In this document: piece after piece, positions 31,634-47,600 of the stretch
Layout of the letters: the number at the start of each line of letters is the position of its first letter
Position numbering within the stretch: position 1 is the first letter of the stretch
Source of the DNA: Paramecium tetraurelia
Taxonomy: Eukaryota; Ciliophora; Oligohymenophorea; Peniculida; Parameciidae
Direction of reading: 5' to 3'
NCBI RefSeq assembly: GCF_000165425.1
Contig: NW_001799641.1
Location: 377,027-441,026 of the forward strand
DNA length: 64,000 bases
Notes under the pieces: model-generated
Databases searched by the model: none
What the model saw: the letters and a program-made list of their open reading frames with translations, nothing else
What the model was told of the DNA's origin: nothing
Program-made: the position numbers and the translations under genes

Positions 31634-35045
<3,412 letters not shown>

Positions 35046-36864: not shown

Positions 36865-37602
36865 ATGATATCAAAAGATAATTATACATGTCCAATTTGT
36901 TTAGGGGTTTTTGTAGATCCTTGCAAATTACAATGTAACCATATTTTTTGCTTATCTTGCCTCCTTGAATTAGTTGATTTCAATTTTATTCAATATAAGT
37001 GTCCAATGTGTAGAATTTAGATTATGAATGATAAAGGTCCTTTTAAAATTGATGAAGAAATTTAACACATAGTTTAAACATGCTTCAAAGAAGAATTTTA
37101 AAAAAGATAATAGGAAATTAAGCTCAATTAAGAGGTAAATCAAAAAGAAATGAAAATTAAAATTAACTATGGAAATGAATATCGTTACTTTGAAGAGGAA
37201 AAATCTAATAAACACTAATGGACACTTTATGTAACTTTAGATTATGTAAGCTAATTTGATTAAACTCCTTTAAATTCTTTGGTATTAATAGAGTTAGTTG
37301 ATAATGTTAAATTTATATTGGACGAAACATTTTATCCAGATGTAATAGTAGTTAGAAATCCCCCATTTCAACTTACTCGCAGAGGATGGGATGTTTTTAG
37401 TATACCAATAGAAATCACTTTTAAACCACAATATAAACTTGATCCTATTAAAATTGAACATCATCTCGTTTTTCAGTAAGGTGGGATTCAGAAATGCTAA
37501 ATTAACAAAATTAATGCAGAAAATATTAAAAACCAATTGGATGCCAAAAAATAAAATCAATAATAAAAAATAGTTTAAACTAAAAAAATCTGGAAGGCAT
37601 GA
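36865..37602 (+). CDS. RING finger-YEATS domain fusion protein
   Basis: Intronless, 245 residues. Residues ~8-52 are a C3HC4 RING: CPICLGVFVDPCKLQC, NHIFCLSC, then CPMC. Residues ~88-215 are a YEATS domain: IKINYGNEYRY, HQWTLYVTLDY, LDETFYPDVIVVRNPPF, TRRGWDVFSIPIEITF and IEHHLVFQ. YEATS domains read acylated lysines on histones and occur in chromatin complexes; RINGs recruit E2 enzymes. Compared with AF9, the cage positions read F (kept), W for Tyr and F (kept), while the His and Ser positions are Asp and Thr. Inference: a nuclear ubiquitin ligase guided by histone acylation. The fusion is open in a single exon, so it is not a splice artefact. Confidence 0.85.
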
Positions 37603-37701
37603 TGATTTTATTTAATCACTTTAAAATATTATTTTAAAAAGGTTTTAAATTTAATATAAGAATGATCCATTACTATTATCAAAATAATCAATAAACTTTT
37701 T

Positions 37702-38523
37702 TCAAGAAACATTTTTTTTTTATAATTTCTATTTTTATTATTCTTTAAACTCTTTGATTTTTTTATCAAAGATACTTAATTATCTCATTTATTTTTCCTT
37801 TTCCTCTTCATCCTCTTTCTTCTACTAATATTAAAAATTGAAGTTATATATGTAATCTCCAGATAGTTCTGTTGTTTTATGGCTTTTTGCTTTTTCAATA
37901 TTGACTTAGATACCCTTGTCTTCAGTTAATAATTTATGTGAAACTCTTGATTTTTGTGAACTGATATTTTTGTTTTTATTTTTCTTGGTTGTAATTTAAA
38001 TTTGATCATTGGATATGTTACTCTTGAAACAGCTTAAATCAGCTTTTTAAGCATCTTGACTACGAGTTGAATATTGGGCAGGTACATTTAATATAGATTT
38101 TTCTTTTAAATGTTCTTTGATGGCTGGTAAGGATAAAGGTTTTTTATCCACGTGAATGCCCTAGATTAGTGATTTATTCTGAGCCAATAAATGTTAGTAA
38201 GACTCAAATATTCCTTATTTCTTCTTAAACCCTTTTGTCTTATATTCATTCAGATATCTTGGAATATAGATGTCCTTCTATTTTACGATATATTCAGGTC
38301 TTTCAACTGAATCAATGGTTTAGATTAAAGGATTATAGATTTGTAAAGGAGGTAATTTTTTAGTTATGTAATAAGTTGGTTTATCATTTTGTATTAATGC
38401 ATCTTAGTGTAGGGGACTATTAAATTATCGATTGTTTGGGAGATGACTTTAGCTCTCATACCTCATGATGTCCTTTCCTCTCCTAGTAGGTTAAGGTTCT
38501 CTATTCTCAAGAAATTTAAGCAT
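37702..38523 (-). CDS. Unrecognised basic protein
   Basis: Intronless, 273 residues, starting MLKFLENREPQPTRRGKDI and ending KEQQKQKLQKKNVS. Mid-region: PPLQIYNPLIQTIDSVERPE, YIPRYLNEYKTKGFKKKQG. Lys/Gln-rich with a C-terminal charged helix. It lies head-to-head with the dynein gene (151 nt apart), so the two may share an upstream region. The look is that of a flagellar-associated protein, but I cannot assign it. Confidence 0.6.
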
Positions 38524-38674: not shown

Positions 38675-41600
38675 ATGAGTTAAAAGAGATTGCCTTCGGT
38701 ATTTGAAATATTTATACAAAGGGCAAATAAGATAGACACATTTAAGCAATAAAGAAGTATCAGGAATATGAAAACAGTAAGACGAGTTAGGCTAAACTGA
38801 ATGACATGATCAAGGTGAAATGAAATTTAATTATTAGGGGACTAAAACAATTTAATTATTGCCAAAGCCAGGGGAGTTTGTGACAGTTGCTTCAGACAAG
38901 TAATCGAATTAATAGCCATACATGGATATCCCAATTAAGGATTTATTAGATGGCACTAAAACGTTTACAGAATTGAAACTGCAAAGCATAGAAAGACAAG
39001 CTTAGAGATAGATGAAGAAACCTAGGGAGAAGGATAGATTTGATGAAGGAGTTTTGAGAAGAGATGATTTAAAACCGCCACAAAGTGAATTGGATGAAGT
39101 ATTGATATATGTATTAAAATTAAGTTTGGAGTGGAGCGAGGAGTCTAACCAAAATTTACCTAAAACATCAGAGAAATAATGAAAAATTAGCACAAAGAGA
39201 TGTTGGCTCCTTCTGAATAATTGATTAAAGATCTATAAGAGAAAAGATTGCCTTAGATTTAACATTCCCATTCTCAAAAGATTGTTCGTCCGATTTCAGC
39301 CAATTTTGTTATTAAGGCCTTGAATATTGGAGATGAAAAGTTGGAGAACTCTAAAGGGATACAATAACAGTTGTTTTAGACTAAGAGAAGTTAATTATAA
39401 TCTGCAAAGCCTAGAAATTTGTATGTGCCCCATTTCCCAGAAGAAATTAAACACTTGACAGGATATCAAACTATTAAATTAAAAGCAGATGACTTTATAT
39501 AAACATACACAGAGGAGTATTTGAAGGAAAAGGAGGAAAAAATGTTGAAGAAACACTTTCAAGTTTCTGCTGTTGATCCAAGATTACAATCCCCTTATAT
39601 GAGAGTATTAATATTAATTATAATAGGTCAATCCTAATACAGGGTAGATCATTAGAGAAAAGTAGGATGAATTGGGGGAGTTAGAATTAACAAAACATAG
39701 GGAAAGACTATTTATGGCATAGCCTTTTGAGATGAAACAAATCTTTTTACCTTTAGATTACTATTATATGGAGGACGAGTCAGGTGATGATTTAATCGAA
39801 TAGTATAAGGAGAAAGAAGGAAAGTGCTTTGGATTTTCAAAGTGGTTCGATACAAGTGGAAACTTCACTTGGGAGGAATGCTTAGTTGAAAAGTATATTT
39901 ATGATGCTGACATGTATGAGATAAGGTTTCTAAAATACAATAAGACTAAATAAGTAACTAGAGTGAATCTTAGATTTAAAAGAGAGAGTGAAGCTTATTT
40001 CAAACAACAATTAGAAATAGCAGATTACTATAGAAAAAGAAGTGAAGTGTTTATTAAGTATAATTACATGATAGATAAAATGGATGATCCAACATCATCG
40101 ATCTAGGAAGATTAATTAATGAGAATACAGCTATTTTCAATGGGAATCTACTTTAAATTGGGATCTGTCAGAGATCCTATTGCATTTTATAAATTGGACC
40201 CATCCATTAAGTTTAATTTCAAAAGATATCTGATTCCAAAATAATTAAGTAGAATCGATTAAGGTCCAAAAGAATTGTGTAAGTTGAAGAAATATAGATA
40301 TGATTTATTGGTTGAACTCTCAGAAGAGGTTAAGAAGTAATTTATCAGAGCCAATCATGAAATTTAATTTAAAAGGATGTTGCCCTATCATGAAGAGAAG
40401 AAAGCCATCTTTAAAGGATATTTGCCAGAAGAATTATTTGAACCAAAACATGTAGAACCCAGATTTCCAGTATACGGCATTGGGTAGCAAAAGTTTATTG
40501 AATTGTTTACCTACATGAAGAAGAATCTCCATTAAGCTATTTAAGAGAAAAACAAGGCTTTATAAGATGCCAACATAAATTTGATTAAGTTGGAAGAATA
40601 ACATCTATTTTGTCAAAACTATCTAGAACCTTAAGATCTTCATGAATTGGACAAGGATATGAAATTTAAGATTGCAGATGCCATTAGGGATTTGAAGACT
40701 AGAATGTATGATGTGCATTATTTAATTATGGAAATGATTGAGGTTGAAGTTAAACAATTGAAGGTTATAGAAGAGGAAAGACTTAGATTGATTGTTCTTG
40801 AAGCTGAGAGACTCAAAATTCAAGAACAAGGTTTAATGAGTGAGACACTTAAACTATTACAACAATTTCAAAAGTTGATTAACATCAAGTTTGAACGATC
40901 TGGATTGGAAATGTGGTAAAGGAGCATAGCAAGATTTATCTCATATCTCAAAATTGATGTGGATCCAAATCTACCACCTTTGCAATAAATCTATCAATAT
41001 GCAAAGGATAGAGAATATCGAGTCTTTAATGATAATCTACTTATCAATATAGAGATCAAAGTATAAGGACTTTAATTGGTTCTCGAACCTAATCCTGAAG
41101 AAATTAAGAGATCCTTAAATAATTACGTTTGGTTAGCGATCAAAGAATTGACTACTGTTCCTTGTATGAGAAGTAGAGAAATAGAATCTGCAAGAGAAGA
41201 TATGATCATGCATATCTTTACAGGCATTGATGATGTTGAGATACTTAATAATAAATAACTTGTTCAATAATATTTAGATTAAAACTTTACTCTCTTTAAT
41301 GTATATTTTGAGAAATTAAATGAATTTGAATCTATATTGGATTATGATATTGAGAAGAGATTAAAGAAGGGATCATTTGAAGAATATGCTAAGGAACTAG
41401 ATAAGTTAATAATGATTAGAGAGGATATGTAAAAGTATATGTTTAAGAAAAAATTGAAATTAGGATTTTATTATTTGAATGTAGAACAATATCAATAACT
41501 ATGTGAGGATAGGTTGAGGAAAGCTTCGGATAGTTTGTACGAAAATTTAATTTAAAAGATTACTAAGGAGAACTTAAAGATTGAAGGTGAGATTAAGTAG

Positions 41601-44600
41601 ATGATATAGAAACTAACAGAAGAACCTAAAAATCTTGAGGAGATGGATGCTTTGAGGACCTATGCCAAAGACCAATTGAAAGAAGAATTGGTGATATTGA
41701 GTAAGAAAATAAATAAAGTAATGGAGAAGATGACTCTGATGGAGAAGATGAATTATAAGATAAGTTATTAGAATTTTGAAAAGACTTGGAATATTTATGG
41801 GATGCCATTGAAATTGATGAGGAAACAGGAAAAATGTTTGAAAAGGCTATAGAACAATGAAAAGAAATTCTAAGAAGATTTGATGACACAGTAGGGAGAG
41901 TTGATTGGAGAAATAAATTACATTAGCAAGGAATTGAATGAATTAATCAACGAAGAAGATATTAATTAGATAAACCAGATTGCTAATAGATTTGCTGATT
42001 TGGGGGAGAAGATGGAAAGGGCAATAGAAGAGGCAGAGATAATTAATAGAAGAGAGGCCATATTGAAGTGGAAATTGACCGATTATTAAGAAGTCGATAA
42101 GATCAAGAAACTATTCACTCCTTATTATAAGGTATGGGCCTTGGGTAGAGATTATTACTTCAAAATTCCCCCTGCCTTGAGTGGACCATTAAATAACATA
42201 GACAGAGATTAATTAACTTAGGATGTAACAGAAGCCTGGACTGAGTTATTTAAGTTGGAGAAAACGACATTTAAAATAATCCCTCATATGTATTAGGTTA
42301 CTATGGCTATTAGAAAACTGTATGAAGATTTCAAACCTTATTTACCGTTAATCAATGATTTAAGAAATCCAGCTTTGAAGAAGCAGCATTGGATTAGTTT
42401 AACAGCATTATTAAAATTGGATGATGATCCTAACTTCTCATTAAATACTCTATTGGAGAAGGGAGTGATGGACTTGAAGGAGGAAATAAGGGAAATAAGT
42501 GAAACTGCATCTAAGTAGAGTTCATTTGAAAGATCAATCAATAAGATGAAGAGTGAATGGAAGAATATCAAGTTTGAGTTAATTCAGTTTAGAGATACTG
42601 ACACACACATCTTGAAAAGTGTTGAGCCTATTTTAGACAAATTAGACGAAGATATAACCAAGATGATGAGTATAGCAAGTTCTCCATTTGTGGCATTTTT
42701 ATTACAGGAAGTTAATTCTTGGAAGGCATAATTATTTAGAGCGCAAGAGATGATTGAATTATGGTGTAAAACACAAAAGTCATGGTAGTACTTATAACCA
42801 ATCTTTTATTCTGAAGATATTATTAGAGAAATGCCTAAAGAGGGTAATAAGTATTCAGTGGTTGATAAAATGTGGAGAGCATTAATGTTGGCTACATTCC
42901 AATAGCCCTTAGTGATGGAAGCATGTTTCCAGAATAGAATGAAGGAGAACTTTGTATTTATGATCGAACAGTTGGATTAAGTTATTAAAAGCTTGAATGA
43001 TTTTTTGAATAAGAAGAGAACAGCATTTCCAAGGTTCTTCTTCTTGTCTAACGAGGAACTTCTATAGATATTAGCTTAGGCAAGAGAACCAAGAGCTGTG
43101 CAAAGACATTTATAGAAATGTTTTGAGGGGATAAATGAAATTACATTTTAGGATAATATGTTGATAACTCATATGATTAGTAGTACTTAGGAAATAATAA
43201 AGTTGATTACTGATGTAAATCCATTAAATACAGAACAAGCAGTAAGAGGAGTTGAGGATTGGTTATATGAAGTTTAATAGTCTATGAAATTAACAATTAA
43301 AACTTTGATTCCTTAGGGTGTTCAAATAGTTTCGGCAAATACATTAGATAAATCCATAGTCTAGATTCCTGCTTAATTGTGTGTATTGGCTCATGAGATC
43401 ATATTTACTAATATGGTTACTTAATTTATTTCTGATTACGAGAAGGATGCCACTTCTATTGACAAATGCATTCAGTAAGCTAACAAAGTATTGATGAGTA
43501 CAGTTTAATTATTGCATCATGAAATAGCAAATGAAAATCATTTACAAGCATTAGGTGTGCTGATAGTTTTATAAGTTAAATAAAAGGATATCACATAGGA
43601 ATTAAAAAGCAAGAATGTGAGAAGAGTGGATGATTTTGAGTGGATGTCATAAATGAGATATTACTTAGAGAAAGATGTAATTGTCAAAATGCTTCATACC
43701 TAAAGAGTTTATGGTTATGAATATTTGGGTAATCAATCAAGGTTGGTTATCACACCATTGACTGATAGATGCTATAGAACATTGATGGCAGCATTGCATA
43801 TGAACTTAGGTGGTGCTCCTGAAGGTCCAGCAGGTACAGGAAAGACTGAAACCACAAAAGATTTAGCTAAAGCAATGGCCAAACATTGTGTGGTGTTCAA
43901 TTGTTCAGATTCATTAGATTATTTAGCTATGGGTAAGTTCTTTAAGGGATTGGTGAGTTGTGGTTCATGGGCATGTTTTGATGAGTTCAATAGAATAGAA
44001 TTAGAAGTCCTTTCAGTTATAGCTCAATAAATACTGGTGATTTAGACAGCAATAGTCAGGGATAATTCGTAGAGGGTTCCTTCTAGAGTGTTCTAATTTG
44101 AAGGGTAGTAATTGACATTGGATTCAACCTGTGCTATTTTTATTACTATGAATCCTGGATATCAAGGAAGAAGTGAATTACCAGATAACTTAAAAGCCTT
44201 ATTCAGAAGTGTTGCTATGATGATTCCAAATTATGCTATGATTACAGAAATCTCTTTGTATTCCTATGGGTTCACAGAAGCCAGGGAGTTAAGTATTAAA
44301 ATTACAACATCTTTGAAATTGGCCTCTGAATAATTATCTACTCAGTCTCATTATGATTTCGGTATGAGAGCAGTTAAGTCAATTATTTTGGCTGCAGGTA
44401 GGTTAAAGAGAGAAACAAACACCAGCGATGAAATCATAGTATTGAGAGCTATTGAGGATTGTAATTTGCCAAAATTCACTTAAAAAGATGTTCCATTATT
44501 CAAAGCAATCATCTCAGATTTATTCCCAGGTGTTGAGCCAGAGGAGAGAGAATACGGGGAATTGGGTAAATTGATTATGCAATAAATTGAATCCATGAGT

Positions 44601-47600
44601 CTTACCTATAATGATAGATTTTACACCAAGATTATTTAATTGTACGAAACTGTAAATGTAAGACATGGTTTAATGGTTGTTGGTGGTACAATATCTGGAA
44701 AAACAACAATAATTAATATATTATCCAAAAGTTTGCAATCTCATATTTATGGATTGAATCCTAAATCAATAACTTCAAAATTATTGTATGGAGATGTCGA
44801 TATGGCAACTAATGAATGGTAGGATGGAATTACTGCAGTGATCTTTAGAGAATGTATTGAGAAGGAAGGTAAGAATTGGGTGTTGTTTGATGGTCCTGTA
44901 GATGCATTATGGATTGAAAACATGAATACAGTATTAGATGATAACAAGAAGCTCTGTTTGACAAATGGTGAAACAATTAAATTAACAGAGCAGATGAGAA
45001 TTATCTTCGAGGTTGAGGATTTAGCTGAGGCATCTCCTGCCACAGTTAGTCGTTGTGGTATGGTATATTTGGAACCTTAAGAAATTGGATGGTAGTCATT
45101 AATATAGGTGTGGAAAAGCCTTTTGACTCCTAATTTCTAGGAACCCTAATATATAGAATTGTTCCATTCCCTATATTAATAATTGGAAGACGTCTTTGAG
45201 GAAATAAAATATAGGTAATTGATTTACACTGCATCGTAAGAATTGCTGGCTTCTAGTTGTTTAAAATTATTTTTTGCTTTTCTGTTGAAGAACAAGACTA
45301 AGGATTAGTTGTTGTAGGATATTGAAATGGAAAACCTTAAAGAGATCCAGATTAAGAGCATTGCAAATGGAAGGTAAGGAAATCAGCAATGTAAAGAAGA
45401 TCAGATAGTTGAATGATAAAGAGAAATTTGAAGTGATAAGTTTCTTCTTCCTTTCAGTTGTATGGACAATTGGAACTTTGTTGGATGGAAATCATAGAAA
45501 ATAATTCAATCAATTGATTCGATAGAAGCTGGAATCAAATTTAGAGGCAAATCAATAACCACCAAAAGAGTTATCAGTGTTTGAGATATACTTCGATATT
45601 GATAAAAAAAATTGGTTGATGTGGAATCAAAAATTAGATTTCCATATTCCCAAAGGCACAGCTTTTCATGAAATCTATGTGCCAACAGCAGAATCGGCAA
45701 GTGTATAAGGTTTATTAAGAATCTTTTTGAATAAACAATTGCCAGTGTTATTATATGGTCGAACTGGAACTGGGAAAACGATGTTGATAAAGAAAGTGTT
45801 GTTAGATGAATTGGATTAAAGCAAATTCATTCCTACAATAACTGCATTTTCAGCAACTACTAATAGTGGATAAGTGTAGGACATTTTGGAATCGAAGTTG
45901 GAAAAGTAAAAAAGAAGAAAAGGTATTTATGGACCTGAAATTGGTAAATGCAATATAATCTTCATTGATGATTTGAATATGCCTTAGAAGGAGTAGTTTG
46001 GAGCACAACCACCACTTGAATTAATTAGACAATGGTTTATTTAATCAGGATGGTATGATAAGAAGTCCTTGGAATTCAAGACCATTATGGATATTTAGTT
46101 TTGTGCAGCCATGGGATTCGGAAGACCTAATATACCTTAAAGGTTGGTTCGACATTTTAATATGATTTATGTGTTGTCTTCCTCAGATGATGCAATGAAA
46201 TACATTTTGTCCAAATTTTTTGAATATGGATTTGATGAGTACGTAGACAAAGTGAAGTTTGTTTCAAAATAATTGCCAAGTTTATGCTTGAGAGTGTATA
46301 AGGAAGTGAGTTAAAGATTTCTACCATTGCCTTCAAGATCTCATTACTTATTCAACTTAAGAGATTTAATCAAAGTCGTTAGAGGATTATTGATGGTACC
46401 TAGTAACAAATATGATGCGACTGGAGATGCCAAATAAAAACTATTGAAATTATGGGCTCATGAGAACATGAGAGTATTCTAGGATAGATTAGTGGATGAG
46501 AAGGATCATAAATAATTTGAATAGATTTTAGTAGAGATCTTGGATGAAGATTGTGCTTTGAAATACTCCGATATTGTCGGATAATCATGTAGATATGGAA
46601 ATTGGTTAGAACCTCATACTCTTTATAAAATATATGTTGAACTAGATGATAATAACAAAGTTATGGAGGTTTTAAATGAGTACATTGGTGAATTCAATGA
46701 CTTTTATCCTAAGTTGAAATTGAACATAGTATTGTTTGAAGATGCCATAGAATTTATCTGTAAAATCAATCGTATAATCAGTCAACCCTTTGGAAATGCT
46801 TTGTTGATAGGGTTGGGAGGAACTGGATGCAGAACTCTATCAAGATTGAGTGCTTTTATGTAGGATTTCAAGATAGGAGAATTAGATTTCGATAAAGACT
46901 TGCTAGAGTGGTATGAATTTTGGAGAGAGATGTTCAAGAATCTATCATTAAAAAATGACAAAAGCATTTTCCTATTATCAGATCAATAAATAGTGACTGA
47001 AATAGTACTGGAGGATATCAACAACATTTTGAATATTGGGGAAATCATTAATCTTTATAATTACGATGACAAAGAGAATCTATTAAGTGACTTCAAAGAG
47101 AATTTATAAAAGGATCGAGAAACCAGAATCCAAGGGAACATCAGTATGTTATAGTTATGGGAATTGTTTGTTAAACAATGTAAAGCCAATCTGCATTTAA
47201 TTATTTACTTGAGTCCAGTTGGAGATAAATTAAAAACAAGACTTAGAAATTTCCCATCTCTTGTTTCATGTACTTCTATTTTATGGATGGAAAGCTGGTC
47301 CCAATAAGCATTGCAACAAGTGGCAGAACATTTGCTACCAGAATCTAGCATTGCTCAAGCTTGTGTTGGAATCCATCATGCTGTTGAATCCATGACTGAA
47401 GTATATTTAAAAAGAACGGGCTATCATTACTATGTCACACCCTTATCTTATATCCAATTACTGAATAGTTTCTAATCCATGTATAATCAATACTCAAATT
47501 CTATCCAATAGAAGAGAGACACATACATCAACGGAGTTAAGATGTTGGATGAGTGTGGATTGGTTGTGGATAAGATGAAGGAAGAACTTGAAGCCTTGTA

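Follow-up and report, generated by a model that had tools for sequence, protein, structure and literature searches.

A RING–YEATS fusion protein of Paramecium tetraurelia with two aspartates in its putative reader pocket

The window considered here, that is, the whole 64-kb stretch of Paramecium tetraurelia DNA that was analysed (C222:377027–441026), contains an open frame that appears to join a C3HC4 RING finger to a YEATS domain. A protein that combines, in one short chain, a complete RING with a YEATS reader would link lysine acylation directly to ubiquitin transfer. The locus raises the question whether the fusion is real, how far it is spread, and whether its YEATS pocket could still read acyl-lysine in the usual way. 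Searches of the organism's own genome covered the 69.07-Mb assembly of 231 contigs.

The coding frame (36865–37599, plus strand) is open under NCBI table 6, in which TAA and TAG encode Gln, and it is closed by tandem TGA stops (37600–37602 and 37603–37605). Of its 245 residues, 16 are recoded Gln. The relatives P0002, P0003, P0004, and L008 share its N-terminus MISK, which speaks for the start at 36865. A script scan for GTA…TAG intron-like stretches of 20–35 nt found none inside the coding sequence, and both Pfam matches exceed their cut-offs: zf-C3HC4 at residues 9–49 (E 4.2e-7, 30.2 bits versus a cut-off of 21) and YEATS at residues 115–205 (E 1.9e-19, 69.8 bits versus 22). Thus, the proposal of an earlier note on this DNA, that a single uninterrupted exon joins a C3HC4 RING to YEATS, is upheld. 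The positions of the features are collected in Table 1.

Table 1. Features of the RING–YEATS gene, in window coordinates
Feature	Position	Strand	Basis or remark
RING–helix–YEATS coding sequence	36865..37602	+	single open frame, ciliate code, 245 aa + TGA stop
C3HC4 RING, residues 9–50	36889..37014	+	Pfam zf-C3HC4; linchpin-position Arg50
Two helices between RING and YEATS, residues 64–92	37054..37140	+	model; conserved Arg81 of family
YEATS domain, residues 97–205	37153..37479	+	
Asp153 (GAC) at AF9 H56 / Taf14 H59 position	37321..37323	+	alignment
Asp176 (GAT) at second Gly of GWG (AF9 A79, Taf14 G82)	37390..37392	+	alignment
C-terminal helix and Gln/Lys-rich tail, residues 218–245	37516..37599	+	model

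In AT-rich DNA read under code 6, long stretches stay open in several frames, and two neighbouring genes, or a dead gene, could in principle be misread as one frame. We regard such an artefact as extremely improbable and reject it, because the relatives are full-length and carry both domains; one of them (P0023) bears a transcriptome-project name, and the paralogues discussed below have dN lower than dS. The window protein can be aligned over its full length with P0002 of P. primaurelia (73%), which keeps 48 of 55 RING residues and 77 of 109 YEATS residues, and the regions least conserved relative to P0002 and P0003 are the tail and the linker. Because of this end-to-end alignment, and because 27 of 27 aligned relatives match both the zf-C3HC4 and the YEATS models at E up to 0.01, the fusion is, on comparative evidence, a product of neither chance nor mis-assembly.

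The earlier note had further stated that no such fusion was known in animals or yeast. A search with the single sequence yielded the window's own protein and a further one from each of P. primaurelia and P. octaurelia, three in all. A five-sequence profile yielded 30 proteins, which precomputed Pfam labels divide into 25 two-domain proteins, one YEATS-only fragment, and four RING-only entries. The named two-domain matches come from P. primaurelia, P. octaurelia, P. sonneborni, P. tetraurelia, Stylonychia lemnae, and Percolomonas cosmopolitus, the last being a transcriptome-project entry (taxid 63605). A profile built on distant members yielded 231 proteins, and the newly named ones among the 120 listed are ascomycetes, moulds and black yeasts such as Exophiala, Zymoseptoria, Curvularia, Venturia, Hortaea, and Microdochium. 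Hence the fusion recurs in other ciliates, in Percolomonas, and in many named ascomycetes, and its uniqueness has to be rejected. Among the named two-domain matches listed (120 of 231 in the widest profile), none is from an animal or a budding yeast. Back-translated patterns gave no relatives in viral contigs and prokaryote genomes, collections in which a eukaryotic gene would not be expected to sit.

Among the matches listed, we found no description of the RING–YEATS fusion in the literature. In the excerpts of PMC4966962, PMC1079808, and PMC2575384 the word YEATS is an author name, and in those of PMC11758572 and PMC9145779 it stands in a reference title alone. The listed entries to which a source gives the name "RING-type E3 ubiquitin transferase" or "Protein AF-9 homolog" are Paramecium and ascomycete proteins of the same family; these names are generic and come without a paper among the matches listed. 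Both kinds of domain are already known, as is the fusion itself in databases under generic names. The RING–helix–YEATS family is widespread and apparently undescribed, and the pocket variant considered below is new among the papers listed.

For comparison within the family, 145 sequences were collected, P0022 (the YEATS-only fragment) and P0027–P0030 (RING-only) were removed, and the Paramecium paralogue L008 was added. No two of the resulting 141 sequences are identical; they include near relatives and are not independent, and many in the family are environmental sequences.

The RING of the window protein has eight zinc ligands with C3HC4 spacing (C9, C12, C24, H26, C29, C32, C46, and C49). 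Ligands 3–8 are present in 141/141 aligned sequences and ligands 1–2 in 137/141, the other four being gapped there: P0019 (Stylonychia), P0032, P0013, and P0026 begin within the RING, and the first two ligands are absent from these entries. Arg50, at the linchpin position, which we take to be the residue directly after the last zinc Cys, is found in all 141, and Pro47 in 140. The solved RINGs nearest to the family profile are the RING2/BMI1 chimera (E 7.5e-17), TRIM21 (2e-13), BRCA1, TRIM31, and RNF168 (1.9e-12). In the structure model, which is free of zinc, the RING is less confident than YEATS, with pLDDT of 69–93 in ten-residue blocks over residues 1–60.

RING domains can be non-catalytic. 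GAS41, Taf14, and other YEATS proteins of small size are well established as complex subunits, and the protein might likewise be a YEATS subunit of a chromatin complex, with its RING a structural zinc module and not an E3. For GAS41, membership in SRCAP and EP400 is given in the excerpt of PMC11808731. Such a role seems improbable here, as the near-invariance of Arg50 and Pro47 is the pattern of active RINGs and the profile matches the RINGs of solved E3s. According to the excerpt of PMC12326332, the linchpin Arg steadies the RING–E2~Ub interface. The domain shows the pattern of an active E3, from which we infer ligase activity.

The segment between the two domains is also a family feature. 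Arg81 is kept in 136/141 members, the spacing from Arg50 to Gly103 is 45–58 residues across the 141 aligned sequences, and a linker motif, P..aromatic..R/K, which is common but does not define the family, occurs in 108/141, whereas 200 shuffles gave 2.6 of 141 on average and never more than 7. In the window protein and P0002 a Lys replaces the Pro of this motif, and the Arg is retained. The window protein has the features that define the family, a RING followed by YEATS at this spacing and Arg81, the definition being drawn from the same sequences. Beyond the linker, the model has the immunoglobulin-like fold of YEATS and matches structures of YEATS with acyl peptides, for example YEATS2–H3K27cr (5iql); the rows of the fold alignment (VIA-align) covered mainly residues 88–226. 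Together with the Pfam match, this bears out the suggestion that the second domain is a full YEATS fold.

The wide distribution leads to the question of one fusion or several. A tree of the YEATS domain alone was built from 23 of the 141 rows and six unfused YEATS proteins (29 rows), and another tree from 38 of the 141 rows. In the YEATS-only tree, the six unfused proteins, including a Paramecium GAS41-like one, lie on one side of a 93/99 branch (unstarred), opposite the ciliate and fungal RING–YEATS proteins; the ciliate RING–YEATS proteins form one group in 17% of its 200 bootstrap trees. The 38-row tree carries warnings of long branches for P0023, P0026, P0020, and P0049 and of odd composition in nine rows, including P0005–P0008. 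The simplest reading would be one old fusion, within the limits set by how few unfused proteins were sampled, by the shortness of the alignment, and by the bias of searching by architecture. Independent fusions in fungi and ciliates are rather unlikely in our view. They would agree with the patchy distribution, with the long branch to the fungal members (1.67 in the 38-row tree), and with a comparison in which only six unfused proteins are set apart by an unstarred branch. However, the domain order is identical, the spacing and Arg81 are shared, the linker motif far exceeds its shuffled frequency, and one branch (93/99) sets off the six unfused YEATS proteins. The linker motif may nevertheless belong to the RING subtype and is no independent proof of a single fusion, because the family RING profile, when its positions 3–82 are aligned to RNF168, spans the same helix.

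The reader pocket is where the window protein departs from its family. As described in the excerpt of PMC8927147, Taf14 holds the acyl-lysine between a GWG arm and a pentapeptide arm beginning at residue 59; the acyl carbonyl is bonded to G82, and the amide is held by a Thr that is itself bonded to H59. The same excerpt terms the pocket histidine invariant and GWG the most conserved YEATS motif. The Ser/Thr that bonds the acyl amide is S58 in AF9 and T61 in Taf14, and the aromatic sandwich is formed by F59 and Y78 in AF9 and by F62 and W81 in Taf14 (excerpts of PMC12362337 and PMC8927147). The GWG motif has an exception in AF9, which carries GYA at that site.

In the window protein T155, F156, and W175 are in place, F156 and W175 making up the aromatic sandwich, and what is missing is the pocket histidine (D153) and the GWG motif (GWD at 174–176). 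Of the 141 members, 135 have His at position 153, five have Asp, and one has Gln; at position 176, Gly occurs in 136 and Asp in five. Asp occupies both positions in the same five rows, namely the window protein, P0002, P0003, P0004, and L008, and the codons of Asp153 and Asp176 are unaffected by the choice of genetic code. The earlier note had described an altered pocket with changes at the His, Ser, and Tyr positions. Only the first of these is truly unusual: Thr (133/141) and Trp (139/141) are family norms at the AF9 Ser and Tyr positions, and Taf14 itself has T61 and W81 (excerpt of PMC8927147), so Thr155 and Trp175 were rejected as peculiarities. Conversely, a second rare change, the Gly-to-Asp replacement in GWG (5/141), had been missed.

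From the altered pocket the note had derived a possible shift of acyl preference. The change of the pocket stands, but its extent goes beyond a mere shift of preference, and loss of acyl binding appears at least as likely. That the protein is an ordinary acyl-lysine-reading E3 with a modestly shifted preference is therefore unlikely: the pocket Thr, Phe, and Trp are intact and the fold is that of the acyl-peptide complexes, but Asp takes the place of the histidine, termed invariant, and of the second Gly in the motif termed the most conserved (excerpt of PMC8927147).

The history of the Asp pair can be followed within Paramecium. There are three RING–YEATS genes in the P. tetraurelia genome: the window gene; a minus-strand gene at C222:600841–601551, also with Asp at both pocket sites; and a plus-strand gene at C90:29542, with a canonical pocket. 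The protein of the latter (L009) is identical over 239 aa to P. tetraurelia P0005, and the two were counted once. When columns 153, 175, and 176 were masked, the 38-row tree grouped the five Asp rows at 99/96, with one change needed; this group adjoins four canonical Paramecium proteins, and the nine rows stand together at 100/99. Because the five rows form one group with the pocket columns masked, the double Asp change is, by this tree, a single event in Paramecium, apart from the C90-type lineage, within the sampled sequences. The pair was retained in two Asp-bearing (D-type) lineages, which comprise the P. primaurelia, P. octaurelia, and P. sonneborni proteins and the two P. tetraurelia genes. 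A separate observation is that the second D-type paralogue (L008:1486-2211, minus strand) has Tyr for Trp at 175 (GYD), unlike P. octaurelia P0003. Comparison of the paralogues (window versus L008, dN 0.36 and dS 1.37; window versus L009, dN 0.58 and dS 1.33; L008 versus L009, dN 0.46 and pS 0.77, with dS not finite) suggests constraint, as dN is below dS, although this is a rough measure since synonymous change is near saturation.

The retention of the pair bears on another explanation, in which the double Asp abolished ligand binding and YEATS became an interaction or dimerisation module beside the RING. This is a genuine possibility, though short of probable. Two highly conserved pocket positions were altered together; their counterparts in Taf14 are G82 and H59, with the contacts given above (excerpt of PMC8927147); and the D-type copy L008 has lost the Trp at 175 as well. 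On the other hand, relaxed loss should lead to drift, whereas the Asp pair, F156, T155, and W175 (the last in four of five) are kept across the D-type lineages.

The genome also contains two unfused YEATS genes of the GAS41 type (L001 and L005/L006), in which His and GWG are in place; no RING match was found in the frames scanned of either. L001 (contig C188) has an apparent 24-nt in-frame intron (GTA…TAG) at L001:1613-1636, whose translation forms an insertion when compared with human GAS41 and Arabidopsis TAF14b. L005/L006 (C3:443500-443761), an apparent duplicate of L001, gives two matches split at the same place. Around the RING–YEATS gene, the window encodes a helicase with HA2 and S1 RNA-binding domains, of DEAH type by its domains (31634-34483, plus strand, open frame of 949 aa), and a large dynein heavy chain segment with AAA_6 and DHC_N2 (39714-45416, plus strand, open frame of 1900 aa). 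A 273-aa frame without a Pfam match (37702-38523, minus strand) runs towards the RING–YEATS gene, whose stop is about 100 bases away. Neither tRNA nor Rfam features were found in the 64-kb window. A frame adjoining the canonical paralogue (L009:2726-3670, plus strand) has no Pfam match; its LVPIADFLNHS recalls SET-domain methyltransferases.

Taken together, the data favour, with a probability of roughly 0.6, a small chromatin-directed RING E3 with an altered pocket that probably does not read acyl-lysine in the standard way, because both pocket arms are altered and retained across duplication and species. The RING, with its eight zinc ligands and linchpin-position Arg, would bind E2~ubiquitin; the helical linker would keep it at a near-fixed distance from YEATS; and YEATS would pick the substrate by docking on a lysine-bearing protein, most likely a histone tail. 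The analogy with AF9, GAS41, YEATS2, and Taf14 makes histones the likeliest target, and we infer a nuclear location and a histone substrate for the window protein. Nearly all family members sampled have a canonical pocket (His, Thr/Ser, Phe, GWG), and the ancestral function was therefore likely acyl-lysine-guided ubiquitylation. In the Paramecium subgroup, both arms have changed (His to Asp, GWG to GWD) and have been kept so through duplication and in several species, and the window copy probably either binds a different ligand or docks in a purely structural role. The coupling of lysine reading to ubiquitin transfer, proposed in the earlier note, is consistent with the complete RING and YEATS fold.

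A more speculative and doubtful idea is that the two Asp residues make the YEATS cage read charged lysine, unmodified or methylated, so that the E3 would ubiquitylate chromatin that lacks acylation. A negatively charged cage would disfavour the acyl-lysine carbonyl and might favour a charged lysine. If so, this ligase and the canonical C90 paralogue would give the cell two RING–YEATS ligases whose read-outs are opposed. The Paramecium subgroup amounts to a natural pocket swap, with one canonical RING–YEATS paralogue and two Asp-pocket copies in one genome, and this set bears on the roles of the pocket histidine and the GWG glycine and on YEATS reading beyond acyl-lysine.

Among known systems, Taf14, GAS41 (YEATS4), YEATS2, and AF9 share the YEATS domain, and the window protein differs from them in its N-terminal RING and in the His-to-Asp and GWG-to-GWD changes. 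The histone-directed E3s RING1B/BMI1 and RNF168, as well as TRIM21-type RINGs, likewise combine a RING with a post-RING helix and have Arg after the last zinc Cys; in the window protein, however, recruitment would be via YEATS in the same chain. A parallel in concept is provided by TRIM24/TRIM33-type E3s, RING ligases that carry their own reader of lysine marks, although there the reader is a bromodomain of unrelated fold (RING with PHD–bromodomain) and the architecture is much longer.
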